A stretch of 64,000 nt of DNA from contig NZ_WTYA01000005.1 in NCBI RefSeq assembly GCF_009828025.1, positions 62,001 to 126,000 on the forward strand. Direction: 5' to 3'. This document shows, in pieces, positions 14,496 to 23,151 of the stretch (positions within the stretch are counted from its first letter, which is position 1; each line of letters starts with the position of its first letter). The stretch is from Qipengyuania algicida. Lineage in GTDB: Bacteria > Pseudomonadota > Alphaproteobacteria > Sphingomonadales > Sphingomonadaceae. Position numbers and translations under genes: made by a program. Under the pieces are notes generated by a model. The model saw nothing but the letters and a program-made list of their open reading frames with translations, had not been told where the DNA came from and did no database searches.

Positions 14496-15035
14496 ATGAT
14501 TATTCGAACAACCATTGCGATCATGATGCTCGGCGGACTGGCGGGTTGCGGCAGCAGCGGCGCGGACAATGCTGGCGGCAGTGTCAGCGCGGACAAGGTT
14601 GCTGACCGCATGGCCGATATGGTTCGCCCCGAGCCGGGCCTCTACCGCAGCACGAGCACCGTGATCTCGGTGGAGGCACCCGGCGCCCCTGACGGCGTCG
14701 CGGATATGCTCAAGAAGTCGATGAGCAGCGGACAGACCAGCGAATATTGCCTGACGCCCGAAGAGGCTGCGAAAGGTTACGAGGAAATGGCGCGGCGCGC
14801 CCAGCACGGCAATTGCACTTTCCAGCGGTTTGACGTGTCGGGTGGGAAGATCGATGCGGTGATGAACTGCGCGGCCCCGCAAGGGGGGAAGGCGCAGATC
14901 GCGCTCAACGGCACCGGGACGTCGACGTCTTCCGTCATGGATATGAAGATGCAGATGGAAGCGCCGGGGATGGGCAAGATGAACACCCATACCAAGGTTG
15001 AGAGCAAGCGGATCGGGCCTTGCCCTGCGTCATAG
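14496..15035 (+). CDS. DUF3617-type lipoprotein
   Basis: 179 residues. The lipobox LAGC ends in Cys18. The mature part has the DUF3617 pattern: PEPGLYRSTSTV near the start, SEYCLTPEEAAKG in the middle (Cys pairs with the later NCTFQRFDVSGGKIDAVMNC), and a closing MNTHTKVESKRIGPCP. The family is common in sphingomonads; its function is not established. A GGAGGG ribosome-binding site lies 5-10 bases before the ATG at 14496. It is divergent from uvrB. Confidence 0.85.
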   Translation: MIIRTTIAIMMLGGLAGCGSSGADNAGGSVSADKVADRMADMVRPEPGLYRSTSTVISVEAPGAPDGVADMLKKSMSSGQTSEYCLTPEEAAKGYEEMARRAQHGNCTFQRFDVSGGKIDAVMNCAAPQGGKAQIALNGTGTSTSSVMDMKMQMEAPGMGKMNTHTKVESKRIGPCPAS

Positions 15036-15163
15036 AAGTAGGCGCCAGATTGATTTCAGCGGGCCGGTCGTGATCGGTCGATTGTCGCCCAGCGCCAGCG
15101 TTCCGGAAACTATTGCCTTCGCCGGGCATTTCAAACGGCAAGGCAGGGGTTCTGGAGCAGATT

Positions 15164-15586
15164 ATGCAAAAAGCACTGATGATCATCGCTGCCGGTACGT
15201 CTCTGTGCACCCTCGCGGGATGCGCTAGCGACCAATATGGTTATGGGAATTACGGCTACGGCTATAATTCCGGGTACGACTATGGCTATGCCGCGCCCTA
15301 CAACGCCTATTACGATGGCTATTACGGCCCGATCTACGATGGCTACTGGGGCACGAACGGCACGTTTTATTACCGCACCAGCCGCAATGAACGCGCCTAT
15401 CGTGCCGGCGACCACGCTCACTTCCGCCGCGACCGTGGGGATGGCCATCACTGGCGCGAATGGCGTGGATCGGTAAAGCCGCAGCGCGGTTACAGAATGC
15501 CGCATTATCGCCATCCGGACCATGACGGGGACCACGATCGCGGTAGTCATCGCGGTAGCCATCGCGGACATCGCGACCATGATTGA
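15164..15586 (+). CDS. Tyr/Gly-rich small lipoprotein with His/Arg/Asp-rich tail
   Basis: 140 residues from the ATG at 15164. A signal sequence ends in lipobox LAGC with Cys20. The mature N-terminus is a tyrosine/glycine-rich low-complexity region (about 25-65), followed by a folded-looking segment FYYRTSRNERAYRAGDHAHF, and a tail of HD, RGSH and RGHRDHD repeats. Such proteins occur in sphingomonads without known function; the tail could bind metal, but that is a guess. An upstream in-frame ATG at 15113 lacks signal-peptide sense. Confidence 0.7.
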   Translation: MQKALMIIAAGTSLCTLAGCASDQYGYGNYGYGYNSGYDYGYAAPYNAYYDGYYGPIYDGYWGTNGTFYYRTSRNERAYRAGDHAHFRRDRGDGHHWREWRGSVKPQRGYRMPHYRHPDHDGDHDRGSHRGSHRGHRDHD

Positions 15587-15710
15587 CGCGGCCCGCGCCG
15601 TGGTGCGCGACATTGCCAATGTTTCGTTCGACCGAAGTCGTCCCGCAACGCGACCGTCTTCTGCTGCGGACTTGCCAAGCAAGCGCGGAACGTCGACATT
15701 GCGCCGTTCC

Positions 15711-16481
15711 ATGGGACGCCAACTCTCTGGCATGGCCAACAAGGCCTATCGCTCGGCCTCGGATATCGGGCGGCGGCTGGCGCTTGCGCGTGAGCCCTTG
15801 CCCGAAGATGTTCGCGCTCCGCGACCACTGTTGCTGCTGGGCGAACTTGCGTGGCTGATCGAGCCGTTGCGCCGCAGCGTGCGCGAACTCGACATCGCGC
15901 CCAGCGCCAAGCCGCAGATCGTGCTGATGCTGCCCGGTTTCGGCGCGCATCCGGCGCGGCTGCGCTACATGGCGCGGCAAATCGAAAAGGCCGGGCACAA
16001 GGTCAAGCGCTGGGGGCAGGGCTTCAACATGGGTGCTACCCCAGACATCCTCGACCGGATCGAAGAACGTTTGCTGGAAATCCACGAACGCTATGGCCAG
16101 AAAGTCATGCTCGTAGGGTGGAGCCTCGGCGGCATTTACGCGCGCGAGATCGCAAAGCGCCATCCCGACAAGGTTACGCGCGTCATTACAATGGGCACGC
16201 CGTTCTCGGGCAATCCGCGTTCCAACAACGCTTGGCGCGCTTACCAGCTGGTTGCCGGTCACCGTGTCGACGAGCCGCCGATCGATTGCGTGCTGTGCGA
16301 GAAACCGCCGGTCGAAACGGTTGCCTTGTGGAGTCCGCGCGACGGCGTGGTCAATCCGCGCAGCGCCTGTGGCCGGGCGGGCGAGCGCGACCGCGCTATC
16401 GCCCTGCGCTGTACCCACATGGGCTTCGTTTATTCCAGGGAAGCAATCGAAACCGTACTACGGGAACTTGAAACAATATGA
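15711..16481 (+). CDS. Alpha/beta hydrolase, lipase-like
   Basis: 256 residues from the ATG at 15711. The fold is shown by VLMLPGFGAHPARLRYMA (oxyanion strand), the nucleophile elbow GWSLGG with Ser138, a likely acid in LWSPRDGVV and the late histidine in CTHMGFVYS. Substrate is unknown; the short lid region fits a lipase or esterase. The start is uncertain: ATGs at 15579 (overlapping the preceding gene) and 15732 are alternatives, and clear family similarity begins only near PRPLLLLGELAWLIEPLRR. It lies 56 bases before the Anbu operon on the same strand and might be co-transcribed. Confidence 0.8.
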   Translation: MGRQLSGMANKAYRSASDIGRRLALAREPLPEDVRAPRPLLLLGELAWLIEPLRRSVRELDIAPSAKPQIVLMLPGFGAHPARLRYMARQIEKAGHKVKRWGQGFNMGATPDILDRIEERLLEIHERYGQKVMLVGWSLGGIYAREIAKRHPDKVTRVITMGTPFSGNPRSNNAWRAYQLVAGHRVDEPPIDCVLCEKPPVETVALWSPRDGVVNPRSACGRAGERDRAIALRCTHMGFVYSREAIETVLRELETI

Positions 16482-16537
16482 AGGTGGTGTAGCCTGCTTG
16501 CAGGAGAGGCCCTTCCACCCATCCGAATAAGGGGGTT

Positions 16538-17965
16538 ATGAGCGGCCAGAACGAATTTTTCGACGAGATGCATGTCGGTGATGGCAGCATCCGCGACGCT
16601 TATCGGGATTACCATAAATGGTATTCCTCAAAGAGTGCCGCATTCCTCAAACGAAAGCACCGGGATGCTGAAACGTCCTTTCGCCGCACTGGCATAACCT
16701 TCAACGTCTATGGCGAAAGCGAAGCCGAAGAGCGGCTGATCCCGTTCGACATGGTCCCGCGTATCATCGATGCGGGCGAGTGGCGGCGATTGAGCCGCGG
16801 GATCGAACAGCGCGTACGCGCGCTCAATGCATTCCTCCACGATTTGTATCACCGGCAGGAGATCATCCGCGCCGGGCGCGTGCCGCAAAGGCTGCTGCGG
16901 GATAATCCCGCATGGCTGCGCAACATGGTGGGATTCACCCCACCGGGCGGCATTTATACCCATATCGTCGGGATCGACCTCGTGCGTACCGGGCCGGACG
17001 AATTCTATGTGCTGGAGGACAATGCGCGTACGCCCTCGGGCGTCTCTTACATGCTGGAAAATCGCGAAACGATGATGGCGATGTTTCCAGAGCTGTTCAT
17101 GCATGTGCCGGTCGAAACCGTCTCCAACTACCCCCGTCGCCTTGCCAAGAGTCTCGCCGCCTGCGCTCCGCCCGCTACGAAAGGCAAGCCGGTGGTGGCT
17201 GTGCTCACGCCCGGAATGTACAATTCGGCGTATTTCGAACATGCCTTCCTTGCCGACCAGATGGGCGCGGAGCTGGTCGAGGGAAGCGATCTGAGAGTAA
17301 TCAACGGGCGTGTCGCCATGCGGACCACGCGCGGATATCAGCCGATCGACGTGATCTATCGCCGGGTTGACGACGAATTCCTCGATCCGTTGAGCTTCAA
17401 TCCCGACAGCGTGTTGGGTGTGCCGGGGATCATGGACGTCTATCGCGCCGGCGGCATCACCATCGCCAACGCGCCCGGCACCGGCGTTTCGGACGACAAG
17501 GCGATCTATTCCTTCATGCCGGAAATCGTCGAGTTCTACACCGGCGAGAAGCCGCTGCTGCCCAATGTCGAAACCTGGCGCTGCGCCGATGAAGACAGTT
17601 GCCGCTACGTGCTCGACAATCTTGCCGAGCTGGTGGTGAAAGAGGTCCACGGCTCGGGCGGTTACGGAATGCTGATCGGCCCGGCGGCAACGAAAGCGGA
17701 GCTCGCGGAGTTTCGCAAGAAGCTCGAAGCGCATCCGGAAAATTACATCGCCCAGCCGACGCTGTCGTTGTCGACCTGCCCGATCTTCACCGAGAAGGGC
17801 CTCGCGCCGCGGCACGTGGATTTGCGGCCCTTCGTGCTGGTGTCGCCCGACACGATCGACATCACGCCGGGTGGTCTCACCCGTGTTGCGATGAAAAAAG
17901 GATCGCTGGTGGTGAATTCCAGCCAGGGCGGCGGCACCAAGGACACCTGGGTGCTGAAAGACTGA
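16538..17965 (+). CDS. Circularly permuted ATP-grasp type 2 protein (DUF404/DUF407)
   Basis: 475 residues, the usual size. It begins FFDEMHVGDGSIRDAYRDY, typical of the family; later are GVSYMLENRE, LTPGMYNSAYFEHAFLADQMG, VKEVHGSGGYGMLIGP and VDLRPFVLV, which contain the expected ATP-grasp ligands. Members are predicted peptide or amide ligases. It is the first gene of the ATP-grasp/alpha-E/transglutaminase/Anbu cluster, 16 bases before the next gene. GGGGG sits just before the ATG. The reaction and substrate are not established. Confidence 0.93.
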   Translation: MSGQNEFFDEMHVGDGSIRDAYRDYHKWYSSKSAAFLKRKHRDAETSFRRTGITFNVYGESEAEERLIPFDMVPRIIDAGEWRRLSRGIEQRVRALNAFLHDLYHRQEIIRAGRVPQRLLRDNPAWLRNMVGFTPPGGIYTHIVGIDLVRTGPDEFYVLEDNARTPSGVSYMLENRETMMAMFPELFMHVPVETVSNYPRRLAKSLAACAPPATKGKPVVAVLTPGMYNSAYFEHAFLADQMGAELVEGSDLRVINGRVAMRTTRGYQPIDVIYRRVDDEFLDPLSFNPDSVLGVPGIMDVYRAGGITIANAPGTGVSDDKAIYSFMPEIVEFYTGEKPLLPNVETWRCADEDSCRYVLDNLAELVVKEVHGSGGYGMLIGPAATKAELAEFRKKLEAHPENYIAQPTLSLSTCPIFTEKGLAPRHVDLRPFVLVSPDTIDITPGGLTRVAMKKGSLVVNSSQGGGTKDTWVLKD

Positions 17966-17981
17966 TGGGGGCGCACACATC

Positions 17982-18926
17982 ATGCTAGGGCGCACAGCCA
18001 ACGCGCTGTTCTGGATGTTCCGCTATCTCGAGCGGATCGAGAATACTGCGCGCATGATCGATGCCGGTATGCGCATGGCGCTGACCCGTGACGTCGTGGC
18101 GTCGGAGGAGGAATGGCGCTCGGTGATCGCGGCGGCGGGATTGCGCGAAAGCTACGATGCCCGTCATGCCACCTGCACCGGTTTGCAGGCGTGGAACTTC
18201 ATGCTGCGCGACAAGGATAATCCGGCGAGCGTGCTCGCCATGTTCGCTCAGGTGCGCGAAAACGCCCGCCAGTCGCGCAACGCCGTGACGGGCGAACTGT
18301 GGGAGGCGGTCAACGACAGCTGGATCCAGATCAAGAAGCTGCTTGCCCGCCCGGTGTCCGAGCAGCGCGTGGGTGAGGCGGTCTCGATGATTCGTCAGGC
18401 AGGGACGCTGGTGCATGGTGCAATTGTCGGGACGATGCTGCGCAATGAAGGTTTCTATTTTGCCCGCGCGGGCACCTATATCGAGCGCGCCGACAATGTC
18501 GCGCGCATCCTCGACATCAAATATTTCCTCTTACTGCCCTCGCTCACTTACGTCGGCTCCAGCCTGGACACAGGACAATGGGATACGATCCTGCGCTCGG
18601 TATCGGGCGATCGCGCGTATCGCTGGCTCAATGCGGGGCAGATCGATGCGAAGCGGATCGTCGAGTTCCTCGTGCTCGACACGCGTTTCCCGCGCAGCCT
18701 GGCCTTCAGCCATGGCGCCCTGCGCGAACACCTCGCAGCGCTCGCCCGCATTCATGGCAATGAGTGCAAGGCCAACGAGTTGATGCGCGAAGCCGACACG
18801 CGCCTTTCGAAAATCGGGATCGACGATGTGTTCGACCGTGGGCTCCATGAATTCCTGGTCGAATTCACCAAGATGAACACCGCGATCGGTCTGGCGATTG
18901 CCGAAGAATACAGGTTTCACGCCTGA
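17982..18926 (+). CDS. Alpha-E domain protein (DUF403)
   Basis: 314 residues of predicted all-helical structure. It opens LGRTANALFWMFRYLERIENTARM, the family hallmark with its paired basic and acidic residues, and has a second RAGTYIERADNVARILDIKY repeat near residue 160. No catalytic motif is visible. The family almost always accompanies the circularly permuted ATP-grasp protein, so it is thought to be its partner subunit. Its stop overlaps the start of the transglutaminase-like gene by one base (TGATG). Confidence 0.93.
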   Translation: MLGRTANALFWMFRYLERIENTARMIDAGMRMALTRDVVASEEEWRSVIAAAGLRESYDARHATCTGLQAWNFMLRDKDNPASVLAMFAQVRENARQSRNAVTGELWEAVNDSWIQIKKLLARPVSEQRVGEAVSMIRQAGTLVHGAIVGTMLRNEGFYFARAGTYIERADNVARILDIKYFLLLPSLTYVGSSLDTGQWDTILRSVSGDRAYRWLNAGQIDAKRIVEFLVLDTRFPRSLAFSHGALREHLAALARIHGNECKANELMREADTRLSKIGIDDVFDRGLHEFLVEFTKMNTAIGLAIAEEYRFHA

Positions 18927-19741
18927 TGCGCCTCGCGATCCGCCATACCACCCGCTATCGCTTCGACGAGCCGGTAATCCACGCGCTCCAGCGCCTGCGC
19001 CTTACGCCCAAGGCGACGCAGGGGCAGGAGATTATCGACTGGAAGATGCGCTATGAGAACGCGGACTGGCAGCTCGAATACGAAGATCAACACTATAATA
19101 CGGTGACGTTGATCGCGGTCCAACCGGGAGTGCAAGACCTCTCTGTCACGTGTGAGGGAACGGTCGACACGCATGATTTTGCCGGAGTGATCGGCCAACA
19201 TTCAGGGCATTTGCCTTTGTGGAGCTTTTGCGGGCAGACAGCATTGACCCGCCCCGGCTCGACGATGCGCGCGCTGCTGCGCGAGTTGAAGGAACAGCGG
19301 GACGATCCGCTGGAACTGCTCCATCGCGCCTCGGCGGCTATCCTCGATCGTGTGCCCTGGACAACGGGTGCAACCGATGTTGGCACGACGGCTGAGGAGT
19401 CCTTGGCCATGGGCAAAGGCGTCTGTCAGGACCACGCGCACATCTTTATCGGGCTCGCCCGTGCGCTCGACATCCCGGCACGATACGTCAGTGGCTATTT
19501 GATGATGGACGATCGGGTGGATCAGGAAGCGACCCATGCCTGGGCCGAGGCGCATGTCGAAGGGCTGGGCTGGGTCGGGTTCGACATTTCCAACGGCATC
19601 AGTCCCGATCCGCGCTATGTCCGCGCCGCTACTGGGCGCGATTACACCGAAGCCGCTCCTGTTGCGGGAATCAGCATCGGTGGTACCACGCAGGCGCTTG
19701 AAGTTGCCGTCGCGGTCGAGCATCAGCAGGTCGATCAGTAA
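18926..19741 (+). CDS. Transglutaminase-like cysteine peptidase
   Basis: 271 residues. An N-terminal transglutaminase-associated domain (RLAIRHTTRYRFDEPV onward) precedes the papain-like core. The catalytic triad is visible as Cys167 in GVCQDH, His204 in THAWAE and Asp220 in GFDISNG. The family includes peptidases and amidases rather than true crosslinkers. There is no signal peptide, so it should work in the cytoplasm with its neighbours. It ends nine bases before the Anbu gene. Confidence 0.93.
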   Translation: MRLAIRHTTRYRFDEPVIHALQRLRLTPKATQGQEIIDWKMRYENADWQLEYEDQHYNTVTLIAVQPGVQDLSVTCEGTVDTHDFAGVIGQHSGHLPLWSFCGQTALTRPGSTMRALLRELKEQRDDPLELLHRASAAILDRVPWTTGATDVGTTAEESLAMGKGVCQDHAHIFIGLARALDIPARYVSGYLMMDDRVDQEATHAWAEAHVEGLGWVGFDISNGISPDPRYVRAATGRDYTEAAPVAGISIGGTTQALEVAVAVEHQQVDQ

Positions 19742-19750
19742 GGGACCTAC

Positions 19751-20494
19751 ATGACGTATTGCGTGGGAATAATGCTCGACAAGGGCCTCGTGTTGATGAG
19801 CGACACGCGAACCAATTCGGGCGTCGATAATATCTCTGTATTCAAGAAGATGTTTCACTGGCGAGTGCCGGGGGAGCGAATCATAACGCTGATGACGGCA
19901 GGCAATTTGGCCACCACGCAAGCGGTGGTCAGCCAGCTGGAGGAACGCACCAAGGAACCTGACGAGCGGGACAATGTGATCCTCAAGGCTCCCACCATGT
20001 TCCAGGTGGCGACCGAGATCGGGCGATTGTTACGTACCACCATTTCCAGTCGGCAGGATGCCAACGGCCAGCGGGGGGAAGGGCGCTTCACCGCCTCCAT
20101 CATCGTCGCGGGCCAGATCGCCGGGATGGAGCCGCGACTGTTCCTGATCTATCCCGAGGGCAATTTCATCGAAGCGGGATCGGACACGCCGTTTTTCCAG
20201 ATCGGCGAGACCAAATATGGCCGCCCGATCCTGCTGCGCGCCTATGACCGGACGATGAGCATGGAGGATGCGGTCAAGCTGCTGATGGTGTCGTTCGATT
20301 CGACCCTGAAGGCGAATCTATCTGTCGGTTTGCCTTTGGACCTGATGGTCATCGAGCGGGACAGCTATGAACCCAGCCATGTCCGCCGGATCGCCCATGA
20401 CGATCCCTATTTCCAGGTGATATCGAGCAATTGGGCCAACGCGCTCAAAAGTGCATTCGACTCGCTCCCGGATTATAGTTTTTATAACCATTGA
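19751..20494 (+). CDS. Anbu, bacterial proteasome-related peptidase
   Basis: 247 residues. The protein starts MTYCVGI, so removal of Met would expose a threonine as N-terminal nucleophile, as in proteasome beta subunits. Asp18 in SDTRTN and Lys32/Lys33 in VFKKM match the Asp17 and Lys33 of the proteasome active site when counted from Thr. IITLMTAGNLATTQAVV and DAVKLLMVSFDSTLKANLSVGLPLDL are typical of Anbu (ancestral beta subunit). Anbu forms open helical or ring oligomers; its substrate is unclear. It is the last of four co-directional genes. Confidence 0.95.
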   Translation: MTYCVGIMLDKGLVLMSDTRTNSGVDNISVFKKMFHWRVPGERIITLMTAGNLATTQAVVSQLEERTKEPDERDNVILKAPTMFQVATEIGRLLRTTISSRQDANGQRGEGRFTASIIVAGQIAGMEPRLFLIYPEGNFIEAGSDTPFFQIGETKYGRPILLRAYDRTMSMEDAVKLLMVSFDSTLKANLSVGLPLDLMVIERDSYEPSHVRRIAHDDPYFQVISSNWANALKSAFDSLPDYSFYNH

Positions 20495-20604
20495 ATCGTA
20501 GCTGGAGCGCGACTTGTTTCGTATCGCAGCGCCTCTGGCGAATTATTTGATCCAATCCGGATTATGGTAATCGCCGGGTTAAGGCCACTATATGCGGTCA
20601 TTCC

Positions 20605-20635
20605 TAGGTAATCACTCCGAAGCGGAATTTACCTA
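20605..20635. promoter_or_regulatory. Interrupted inverted repeat in the leader of the LuxR-type gene
   Basis: TAGGTAA at 20605-20611 is matched by TTACCTA at 20629-20635. Inside lies a second small inverted repeat, TCCG-AAG-CGGA (about 20616-20626). The unit could be an operator for the downstream regulator or an RNA hairpin in its leader. It lies 52 bases before the start codon in a 193-base gap with no gene. Confidence 0.45.
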
Positions 20636-20660
20636 AAACGCCAACTCTACTTCCTAGTCG

Positions 20661-20681
20661 TGAGCATGCTCATGGAGGAGG
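20661..20681 (+). promoter_or_regulatory. 12-base perfect palindrome next to a strong ribosome-binding site
   Basis: TGAGCATGCTCA (20661-20672) is a perfect palindrome, followed after one base by GGAGGAGG (20674-20681), one of the strongest ribosome-binding sites in the window, six bases before the ATG at 20688. It could be a binding site for a dimeric regulator or an RNA structure that controls access to the ribosome site. Confidence 0.45.
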
Positions 20682-20687
20682 TTTAAC

Positions 20688-21410
20688 ATGGCGAAAGACA
20701 CGACTCTCCACATTATTGCACGATCAAGCGCAGAGCGAGCGACGCAGGCCCGCATCGGTTTTGATCTTGGATATCACGCGGAGATTTACAATGATCCGAC
20801 CGAGCTGGAGGCGCATGTCCCGACCAGCGGCGTGATCATTCTGGAAGACTGCGAAGGTCCGGGCAGCCTGGTGGACATCGTGGCTGCGCTGGAGCGCGCC
20901 GGACAATGGTTGCCGATAATAGTTACCGGTGCCGCACCTGCTCCGCGTCGCGTCGTGGAAGCGATAAAGGAAGGCGCGCTCGACTACATCGAACTGCCGC
21001 TCACCAAAAGCCGGTTGGCGTCCTCGCTTGAGGTCATCGAGCAGGAAGCAGGTCCATATTGCGACGCACGACGCCGTGTCATCGAGGCGCGCAAGCGGCT
21101 CGAGAACCTGACGCCACGCGAACGCGAGGTGTTGGACTGGCTGACCCAGGGATCGAGCAACAAGGTAATCGCGCGCGAGCTGGATATCAGCCCGCGGACC
21201 GTCGAGATCCACCGCGCCAATATGATGTCCAAGCTCGGGGCTTCGCATTCTGCGGAAGCCGTGCGCCTTTGCCTTGAAGCGAATATGGCCGTCGGTATCG
21301 CTACGTCGCTCACCGCTCATCGCAATGCGGAACCGTCCATGCTTGAGGTGGGAAACGCTTCAGGTGATTCCGCTACGATCGTCATGGAACCGCACCGCCT
21401 GTTTGCCTGA
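20688..21410 (+). CDS. FixJ/LuxR-type transcription regulator with degenerate receiver domain
   Basis: 240 residues. The N-terminal ~125 residues resemble a receiver: Asp54 in LEDCEGPG matches the phosphoacceptor and Thr80 in IIVTGAA is kept, but the conserved lysine is replaced (IELPL, Leu103 where FixJ has Lys). The C-terminal LuxR helix-turn-helix, about 137-200, is intact: LTPREREVLDWLTQGSSNKVIARELDISPRTVEIH in pieces. Phosphorylation may therefore be lost or altered. The last 40 residues look disordered. It follows the Anbu operon by 193 bases, with its own structured leader, so it is probably a separate unit. Confidence 0.9.
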   Translation: MAKDTTLHIIARSSAERATQARIGFDLGYHAEIYNDPTELEAHVPTSGVIILEDCEGPGSLVDIVAALERAGQWLPIIVTGAAPAPRRVVEAIKEGALDYIELPLTKSRLASSLEVIEQEAGPYCDARRRVIEARKRLENLTPREREVLDWLTQGSSNKVIARELDISPRTVEIHRANMMSKLGASHSAEAVRLCLEANMAVGIATSLTAHRNAEPSMLEVGNASGDSATIVMEPHRLFA

Positions 21411-21430
21411 TCGGGTGGAAGTCTCCTCCC

Positions 21431-21464
21431 GAGGCTACCGGCAATAGGCCTTGCCGGTAGCCTC
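21431..21464. terminator. 14-bp perfect hairpin between convergent genes
   Basis: GAGGCTACCGGCAA (21431-21444) is the exact inverse of 21451-21464, with a six-base loop. It lies between the convergent LuxR-type and extensin-like genes and contains the stop codon of the latter. No T-run follows on either strand, so it is either a bidirectional factor-dependent terminator or an RNA 3'-end stabiliser. Confidence 0.6.
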
Positions 21465-22103
21465 AAGGTGGAAATGGTTCTGGTGTGCCGAATTGTAATC
21501 CGGGCCAAGCACAGTTCCGAAGCGTTTGCAGGCGCTTTTGTGGATCACTTGAAGGAATTTGCGTTCGGCCGGAGTGCCTTCTGACCAATCGGCCTTGACG
21601 CTGATCCGGCGACCGTCGGCGAGATCGAAAGCGGAGACATCGATAGCCTGTGCCCGTGAATGGGCGGACATGCGGTTCGACCCGGCAATCGTGCGGCAGG
21701 AATAGCTGCCCATCGTCTCTATTCGTTTGAGCGGACTTCCGAGGATCTGGCGCGCCGCACGATCGACGCCATAGCGCGCCCAGCCGGCGAAAGTTTCCGC
21801 CAGCGGGCAGGTCACCGGGCCAAGATTTGTGAGCGAGAAATCGCCCCGATCCCCGGCAAGATCCTCCAGCCGCACGGTGTTAACGGTCGAACACCCACCA
21901 CCGTAATAGCGATCTGGCAAGGGTATGAACTGCGTACCTGTCGCGCCGAGCTGGGCCAGGCATTGAGCATCACCGGGGTGAGCGGTGGTTGCCGAAATCC
22001 CCGTCTGCTGCGCGGGCCGACCTTGGCGACTTTGCGGGATGCTGCCGCAAGCCGTCACCAGCATCGTCGCAGCGGCGAGGCATATAAGTCTTACAGATAA
22101 CAT
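21435..22103 (-). CDS. Extensin-like family lipoprotein
   Basis: 222 residues from the ATG at 22103; a GTG at 22115 is possible. The lipobox VTAC gives Cys19. The mature protein has the extensin-like (PF06904) pattern: GGGCSTVNTVRLEDL, TCPLAETFAGWARYGVDRAARQI, MGSYSCRTIAG, SAHSRAQAIDVSAFDLADGR, and a closing SAHQNHFHLEATGKAYCR. His and Asp residues in the last two motifs recall the D,D-peptidase VanY-like metal site, so a cell-wall role is possible but not shown. It reads toward the LuxR-type gene. Confidence 0.88.
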   Translation of the reverse strand: MLSVRLICLAAATMLVTACGSIPQSRQGRPAQQTGISATTAHPGDAQCLAQLGATGTQFIPLPDRYYGGGCSTVNTVRLEDLAGDRGDFSLTNLGPVTCPLAETFAGWARYGVDRAARQILGSPLKRIETMGSYSCRTIAGSNRMSAHSRAQAIDVSAFDLADGRRISVKADWSEGTPAERKFLQVIHKSACKRFGTVLGPDYNSAHQNHFHLEATGKAYCR

Positions 22104-22141
22104 CGAATGACCCACATGACAGGCTGAATCTAGACACAGGA

Positions 22142-22173
22142 TTGACGTTTGTCATTTAGTTATTTAGCTAAAT
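22142..22173 (+). promoter_or_regulatory. Promoter with overlapping palindromic operator upstream of sdpR
   Basis: TTGACG (22142-22147) and TAGCTA (22165-22170), 17 bases apart, look like -35 and -10 boxes. The -10 lies within ATTTAGCTAAAT (22162-22173), a perfect 12-base palindrome preceded by a half-copy ATTTAGTT (22154). ArsR-type repressors bind such sites. Transcription would begin at about 22177-22178, that is at the ATG itself. Confidence 0.6.
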
Positions 22174-22177
22174 TCCT

Positions 22178-22462
22178 ATGCCGAGTGTGTTCGATGCTCT
22201 TTCGCACCCGATCCGTCGTGATGTGCTGGAACTGTTGAAGCGCGGCGGAATGTCGGCGGGCGCTCTGGCCGATCATTTCGACGTTTCCAAGCCCACCATG
22301 TCAGCCCACTTTGCCAAACTGCGCGAAGCCGGGCTGATCCAGGGCGAGCAGTGCGGCGGCCACATCATCTACACGCTCAACCTGTCCACGCTCGAAGAGG
22401 CGCTACACGGCTTTATGTCGCGCATGGGCATGAACCTCACCATTCCGGAGGACGACCAATGA
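22178..22462 (+). CDS. sdpR: ArsR/SdpR-family autorepressor
   Basis: 94 residues, one winged-helix domain: FDALSHPIRRDVLELLKRGG (helices 1-2), MSAGALADHFDVSKPTMSAHFAKLREAGLI (helix-turn-helix) and QCGGHIIYTLNLS (wing). In Bacillus, SdpR represses itself and sdpI until the membrane protein SdpI sequesters it. The ATG at 22178 has no ribosome-binding site before it and sits at the predicted transcription start. The stop overlaps sdpI by ATGA. The symbol is given for family, not proven function. Confidence 0.88.
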   Translation: MPSVFDALSHPIRRDVLELLKRGGMSAGALADHFDVSKPTMSAHFAKLREAGLIQGEQCGGHIIYTLNLSTLEEALHGFMSRMGMNLTIPEDDQ

Positions 22463-23151
22463 AAACCAAGGGCCTGCTTATCGCGTCGCTGGTGGTTGCT
22501 GTATTGATGGCAGGGTTCGCGGTGCTGACGGCGCAACGCCTCCCTCCGGGAACCATGCTGCCGACGCACTGGAATGCCGCCGGTCAGCCGGACAATTTCG
22601 CGCCCGCCCTCAAGGCATTGCTGATGCCGCCCGCAATCGCTGCGGGGCTTGGCGTGTTTTTCTCGATCATTCCCCGCATCGAGCCTTTGCAGGACCGTCT
22701 CGAACAATCATCCGCACTGTTCAGGACTGCCTGGCTGGGTGTCCTCGGCGTTATGATCGTGGTGCAGCTGGCTATCGGCCTGCCCGGCTGGGGCGTCACC
22801 CTGCCGGTCAACGCGATCATACTGGCAATCGGGGTGATGTTCATCGTTCTGGGCAATGCGCTCCCCAAGAGCCGCCCCGGCTTCTTCGTCGGTATTCGTA
22901 CGCCCTGGACGCTGACCGATACAGACGTGTGGATTGCTACGCACCGGCTTGGCGGCAAGCTGATGATGCTTGCTGGCCTGGCGATCGTTATCGCCAGCCT
23001 GCTACCCATCCAGCCGCAGAATACGGCAATCGTCGTGCTGGTGTCCGTCGGGATCGCAGCGCTGATCCCGACGGTTTACAGCTGGTGGCTGTGGCACCAG
23101 AAAAAGGCGCGCGGAGAGCTTTCGCCTCAGGACAAGGCGACACGTGGCTGA
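22459..23151 (+). CDS. sdpI: SdpI-family membrane protein
   Basis: 230 residues. Six or so hydrophobic segments are visible, at about 5-25, 49-69, 86-106, 112-130, 162-180 and 187-207. LPTHWNAAGQPDNFAPA is the family's DUF1648-like motif and SRPGFFVGIRTPWTLTDTDVWIATHRLGGKL is the SdpI motif (read here in pieces). In Bacillus SdpI gives immunity to the SdpC toxin and relieves SdpR repression. No sdpABC toxin genes are nearby, so the role here is unclear. Its last 25 bases overlap putP, which is convergent. Confidence 0.9.
   Translation: MKTKGLLIASLVVAVLMAGFAVLTAQRLPPGTMLPTHWNAAGQPDNFAPALKALLMPPAIAAGLGVFFSIIPRIEPLQDRLEQSSALFRTAWLGVLGVMIVVQLAIGLPGWGVTLPVNAIILAIGVMFIVLGNALPKSRPGFFVGIRTPWTLTDTDVWIATHRLGGKLMMLAGLAIVIASLLPIQPQNTAIVVLVSVGIAALIPTVYSWWLWHQKKARGELSPQDKATRG

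Follow-up and report, generated by a model that had tools for sequence, protein, structure and literature searches.

Does the Anbu operon of Qipengyuania algicida consist of the four genes known from other bacteria, or do neighbouring genes belong to it as well? The question is raised by a 64,000-nucleotide stretch of contig NZ_WTYA01000005.1 (the window, to whose positions all coordinates refer). In this window, genes for a circularly permuted ATP-grasp protein, an Alpha-E protein, a transglutaminase-like protein and the proteasome beta-subunit homologue Anbu lie between an alpha/beta hydrolase gene and a gene for a FixJ-like regulator. The cluster is the published Anbu operon, present as an intact, canonical chromosomal copy, and is an ordinary member of a known system. 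New in this analysis is the test of both neighbouring genes, which adds no new part to the Anbu system.

The cluster at 16538-20494 is complete, with all four genes on the plus strand in the order given above and separated by 16, -1 and 9 bases. The open reading frames and the Pfam families agree on this, as the preliminary description of the locus had proposed, and the Pfam scores of all four proteins exceed the curated cut-offs (Table 1). Alpha-E, CP_ATPgrasp_2 and Anbu have one match each in the 3.2-Mb genome, all within the cluster, and one copy of HslV is encoded elsewhere in the genome. Among the titled records in the best 80 of 595 confirmed Anbu matches, the closest is from Erythrobacter sp., with 83% identity in Anbu.

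Table 1. Positions of the genes discussed in the text (window positions; the divergent Anbu-like proteins are given by locus)
Feature	Position	Strand	Basis
Alpha/beta hydrolase, 256 residues, Ser138/Asp211/His236	15711..16481	+	Pfam PF00561
Circularly permuted ATP-grasp protein (CP_ATPgrasp_2), predicted amide/peptide ligase, 475 residues	16538..17965	+	Pfam PF14403, 3n6x match
Alpha-E protein, helical, 314 residues	17982..18926	+	Pfam PF04168
Transglutaminase-like protein, 271 residues, Cys167-His204-Asp220	18926..19741	+	Pfam PF01841 and PF08379, 3isr alignment
Anbu, proteasome beta-subunit homologue, 247 residues	19751..20494	+	Pfam PF00227, solved Anbu relatives
FixJ-like LuxR/GerE regulator, atypical receiver	20688..21410	+	GerE PF00196
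Divergent Anbu-like proteins	L159 4974-5693 and 5999-6289; L160 4914-5627; L300; L301		

Conservation was followed in 396 genomes of the order, of which 225 contain Anbu (E ≤ 0.001). From 98 of these, 99 loci were fetched (L063-L161), a non-random sample made up of 28 congeneric genomes, 40 further genomes for which coordinates were listed and 30 distant genomes. A contig search supplied the best 80 of the 595 matches (L218-L297), a set from which far relatives are absent and which may omit records very close to the window's own genome. A FastTree tree of the four operon proteins had 90 rows (89 loci and the window); any locus without one of the four genes was excluded by rule, and L142, with Anbu split in two, and L143, with the transglutaminase-like match on the opposite strand, were excluded by hand. 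The four genes were co-stranded in 90 of the 99 fetched loci, and 77 of the best 80 had matches to all four in an unchanged order, indicating that the cluster is not a product of chance. The three exceptions were two contigs that end within the cluster (L258 and L273) and one locus without an ATP-grasp or Alpha-E match (L234). The latter is a metagenome-assembled contig with a partial hydrolase match, most of the transglutaminase-like gene and Anbu, and may contain an assembly fault.

The window Anbu scored 40.9 bits against the Pfam Proteasome family, and phmmer matched it to solved Anbus with E values of 2.9e-89 (5loy, a designed Anbu), 1.9e-72 (5nyj) and 4.5e-60 (5lox). Alignments with these and with 5nyf and 5nyw run from residue 1 or 2 to residue 241 or 242 (2-241 of 247 for 5loy), with no functional difference visible in the sequence. 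The protein starts with MTYC, placing Thr2 immediately after the start methionine, with no propeptide. Thr2 (codon 19754-19756), Asp18 (19802-19804) and Lys33 (19847-19849) stand at the Anbu/proteasome positions in an alignment of 15 sequences, matching Thr1, Asp17 and Lys32(33) (Met-less numbering) of published Anbus, which are likewise described without a propeptide in the excerpts available. Removal of the start methionine is reported for Pa-Anbu in the same excerpts and is presumed here for the window Anbu by analogy.

Among aligned relatives, Thr2 and Asp18 were found in 97/97 sequences and Lys33 in 95/97, with two gaps; the counts of conserved residues include the window sequence, and gene models below the length limit were dropped. 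The transglutaminase-like protein scored 80.3 bits for Transglut_core and 70.2 bits for Bact_transglu_N, and its Cys167, His204 and Asp220 (codons from 19424, 19535 and 19583, respectively) were present in 92/92 aligned sequences; an alignment with 3isr was also made. The catalytic residues of both proteins are therefore kept, as had been described earlier. The accompanying claim that both peptidases look active goes beyond this evidence. Conservation speaks for conserved sites and not for activity, since published Anbus were inactive on standard proteasome and peptide substrates in the available parts of two papers (PMC6376114, PMC5666114). Anbu may be an active peptidase, judging by its sequence; for the transglutaminase-like protein, a Cys-His-Asp triad alone does not imply a peptidase.

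The ATP-grasp protein matched PF14403 over residues 74-451 with 553.6 bits (cut-off, 32) and 3n6x, a "putative glutathionylspermidine synthase," with an E value of 4.7e-194. Alpha-E scored 279.9 bits against PF04168 (cut-off, 20.8), and its two ER motifs, E17-R18 and E168-R169, were invariant in 42 sequences. An AlphaFold2 model of Alpha-E was helical (predicted local distance difference test [pLDDT], 88.3; predicted template modelling score [pTM], 0.87). Its sequence had no match in the PDB at E ≤ 1 and its model had no match among PDB folds at E ≤ 0.001, so that no mechanism can be derived from structure.

The favoured reading, to which we give about an even chance, is that the proteins of this canonical operon together make and break a small amide product; how they would work is drawn from family knowledge and published data. 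The ATP-grasp protein would activate a carboxylate as an acyl phosphate at the expense of ATP and couple it to an amine, giving a peptide- or isopeptide-like product, with Alpha-E as a possible helical partner or carrier for the ligation step. The transglutaminase-like cysteine enzyme and Anbu, as an N-terminal nucleophile hydrolase, might then transfer or hydrolyse the amide, and such a cycle could plausibly be linked to nitrogen economy. The pairing of a peptide ligase with hydrolases, also proposed in the preliminary description, agrees with a published hypothesis (PMC5666114, PMC6376114; excerpts). The same excerpts report that the ATP-grasp protein of the Yersinia bercovieri operon releases phosphate from ATP and that, in Pseudomonas putida, Anbu increases when nitrogen is limiting. 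In marine samples, the domains of the operon are co-abundant with urea-metabolism domains (PMC3597751, available in part). The reading is supported by the protein families and their order, by the conserved catalytic residues and by the joint absence of Anbu, Alpha-E and CP_ATPgrasp_2 in four genomes (G068, G163, G203 and G233).

Several observations weigh against the make-and-break cycle. Besides the inactivity of published Anbus on standard substrates, no complex of the operon proteins was found in the published work as far as excerpted (PMC5666114, PMC6376114), and no terminator-like site was found on the plus strand in 15400-22200, leaving the transcript ends undefined. The parts of the operon are also separable. 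Two genomes, G135 (L148, 8001-8768) and G172 (L298), contain Anbu but have no match to Alpha-E or CP_ATPgrasp_2, and G342 (L154, L302 and L303) contains trios of ATP-grasp, Alpha-E and transglutaminase-like genes without a nearby Anbu, together with a lone Anbu elsewhere. G357 has the full gene set. These separable parts leave an obligate make-and-break cycle unproven and weaken the view that Anbu acts exclusively on the ATP-grasp product.

The separable parts also favour the strongest alternative, that Anbu is a general protease of protein or peptide turnover which shares a transcript with an amide-synthesis module and has different substrates. The active-site geometry of one solved Anbu, which resembles that of the proteasome in the portion of the source available, points in the same direction. 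Against it stand the gene order kept in nearly all of the best 80 loci, the joint absence of the three families in four genomes and the presence of HslV already in the genome of the window. The general-protease explanation is possible but less probable than the make-and-break reading.

Outside the four genes, the FixJ-type gene starts 193 bases after Anbu. Its product has a GerE helix-turn-helix (80.4 bits) and resembles FixJ response regulators (NF006900) over residues 1-200, but it stays below their cut-off (128.5 bits; cut-off, 255) and had no match to Pfam Response_reg at E ≤ 0.001. A putative phospho-Asp (Asp54) was kept in 56/65 aligned sequences, while the position of the usual lysine was Leu in 53/65, and the window protein lacks the acidic pair, all of these positions being assigned by eye. 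What we take to be the residues of a canonical receiver (acidic pair, phospho-Asp and Lys) is thus incomplete in this protein, and the regulator may work without phosphorylation, as far as its residues can tell.

The FixJ-type gene lies within 400 bases after Anbu in 62/99 fetched loci. Among the best 80 matches, it lies within 1.3 kb past the Anbu start in 16, all of them in L218-L241, whose titles name Erythrobacter, Parerythrobacter, Pelagerythrobacter, Altererythrobacter, Croceicoccus, Croceibacterium, Porphyrobacter, Novosphingobium and kin. The other 56 loci (L242-L297), with titles mostly from Rhodobacterales, Rhizobiales, Hyphomonadaceae, Sphingopyxis and Blastomonas, contained one FixJ-like match, 8.5 kb away (L281). 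Two loci, L077 (G366) and L081 (G302), carry two FixJ-type genes in tandem after Anbu.

One explanation of this distribution would be a four-gene core with a clade-specific fifth gene, the regulator either controlling the operon or being co-regulated with it. The gene was found in 148 of the 396 genomes (E ≤ 1e-35), 145 of which also have Anbu; these genomes are related and the events not independent, and some of the 148 matches are weaker, lie elsewhere in the genome and are probably paralogues. The gene is missing together with the operon in G068, where the hydrolase remains, and operon-less G203 and G233 retain only a FixJ-type remnant of 112 residues at the site. The third FixJ-type genome without Anbu, G163, argues the other way: uvrB, a DUF3617 gene, the FixJ-type gene (a 217-column match) and an extensin-like gene are present, and the hydrolase, Anbu, Alpha-E and the ATP-grasp gene are absent. 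Intact operons with no regulator gene next to them also occur in L066, L090, L092, L119 and L129/L130, on at least five branches of the tree, with a weaker match elsewhere in the genome in G259, G117 and G212, and in L125/L216 the regulator gene has been relocated together with the extensin-like gene. On the tree, its adjacency required 7 changes; most simply, the gene arrived once at the base of the clade and was later lost in some lines, although the counts are blind to gain versus loss. The earlier suggestion that the LuxR-type gene is an extra part is weakly supported: among the loci examined, the gene lies beside Anbu in one clade only, and its occurrence tracks that of Anbu. It accompanies the operon as an optional, clade-specific gene, and a true fifth operon gene is unlikely, somewhat more so than a general protease.

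A more specific form of this idea, for Erythrobacteraceae and their closest relatives, is that the operon stands under a degenerate-receiver FixJ-type regulator, both being flanked by the hydrolase and extensin-like genes, and is read from an extracytoplasmic function (ECF)-like promoter, GGAAC-N16-CTTT, overlapping the hydrolase end in many relatives. The pattern derives from Caulobacter sigma-T, for which GGAAC and CGTT separated by 15-17 bases are given in the available part of PMC5869019, and was sought in the 200 bases before each gene in 61 loci that contain the hydrolase, the operon and the FixJ-type gene. GGAAC-N16-CTTT occurred before the ATP-grasp gene in 26/61 loci (for example, L063, L084 and L090, the last carrying it although the hydrolase is not directly upstream), and a looser form, GGAAC-N16-17-[CG]NTT, occurred in 45/61. 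Each form was found before Anbu in 2/61 loci, and neither before the FixJ-type, UvrB, Alpha-E or extensin-like (Ext) gene, UvrB and Ext being counted only where present. A motif column table of 57 sequences was biased towards the motif, as the sequences were chosen partly by motif score. Several findings speak against such a promoter. The strict CGTT form occurred in only 2/61 loci; GGAAC alone is also frequent before Anbu (22/61) and Ext (16); in most loci, by eye, GGAAC falls inside the hydrolase coding sequence, at its end; and of the 25 loci without the hydrolase, 2 had the looser form and 1 the CTTT form upstream of the ATP-grasp gene. The window has neither form before 16538. We regard this regulatory model as improbable. 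An RNA element between the hydrolase and ATP-grasp genes was rejected, its fold being no better than shuffles (z, -0.40); an Rfam search of 15000-22500 gave no match, and sigma-70-like sites (5, versus a shuffle mean of 2.4) were uninformative.

The hydrolase gene is separated from the downstream ATP-grasp gene by 56 bases. Its product scored 32.5 bits against Abhydrolase_1 (PF00561; cut-off, 25.8) and 31.4 bits against BioH (cut-off, 206.95), and its Ser138, Asp211 and His236 were present in 84/84 aligned sequences. The hydrolase precedes the ATP-grasp gene by at most 300 bases in 64/99 fetched loci, on the same strand and mostly 41-133 bases away, with overlaps in L109, L121 and L124. Both flanking genes were present in 60 fetched loci, the hydrolase alone in 4, the FixJ-type gene alone in 2 and neither in 32, the remaining locus (L158) having no gene model. 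Within the best 80 matches, the hydrolase is upstream in 19, all in L218-L241 (partial in L234 and farther off in L228 and L241), and has no match in L242-L297.

The hydrolase can keep its place where the operon is missing or lies elsewhere. In G068, of the same genus, uvrB, a DUF3617 gene (also identified in the window), the hydrolase and an extensin-like gene stand in a row, and in nine genomes (G352, G185, G356, G332, G382, G376, G146, G383 and G300) the hydrolase adjoins uvrB and Anbu is remote, lying on a different contig or, for G382, at a distance of about 345 kb. G316 was excluded from this argument, as its contig stops 336 bases past the hydrolase match. Hydrolase matches occur in 310 of the 396 genomes (E ≤ 0.001), more than Anbu, although the weaker ones are likely paralogues, and related hydrolases are present in many genomes without Anbu. 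On the tree, hydrolase adjacency required 3 changes. Because it stays beside uvrB where the operon is absent or elsewhere, the hydrolase is tied to uvrB and not to Anbu; it is probably a bystander of the uvrB neighbourhood, and the proposal that it is an extra Anbu part was not borne out. A six-gene unit of hydrolase, core and regulator, which the paired flanks and short gaps might suggest, is very improbable: its hydrolase part is largely refuted, and the unit is rejected in view of hydrolases without the operon, loci without the hydrolase and the gaps in FixJ-type adjacency on the tree.

No other recurrent Anbu partner was convincing in other lineages. Of 37 open reading frame families with members in 8 or more of the best 80 loci, four have no member in L218-L241 (16, 8, 8 and 8 loci) and resemble, as named by eye, ABC-transport and glycerol-3-phosphate genes. 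Divergent Anbu-like proteins occur in G021, G027, G057 and G063, genomes with no Alpha-E or CP_ATPgrasp_2 match. Those of L159 and L160 share 27-33% identity with 12 Anbus compared, and that of L159 matched 5loy with an E value of 2.4e-34. A small glutamine-rich gene, divergently oriented, lies beside each of the four (over only 26 columns in L160), and these genes may represent a distinct Anbu-type system that has a partner of its own.

The Anbu operons of Y. bercovieri and Pseudomonas aeruginosa consist of the same four genes in the available parts of PMC6376114 and PMC5666114, and the window differs from them only in its flanks, the hydrolase upstream and the FixJ-type regulator downstream. 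Among the best 80 loci, these flanks were seen only in L218-L241, and they are confined to one part of the tree. Among the papers listed in a literature search, with subscription papers mostly outside its reach, none was seen to connect Anbu to an alpha/beta hydrolase or to a regulator of the FixJ/LuxR type.

The analysis yields a cleaner partner list for Anbu: the natural losses argue against the hydrolase as a partner, and the regulator is left only as an optional lead. If true, dedicated regulation of the operon would provide an initial clue to the conditions under which Anbu is required. Genomes of the same genus with and without the operon offer a natural contrast that can be used for metabolomics.

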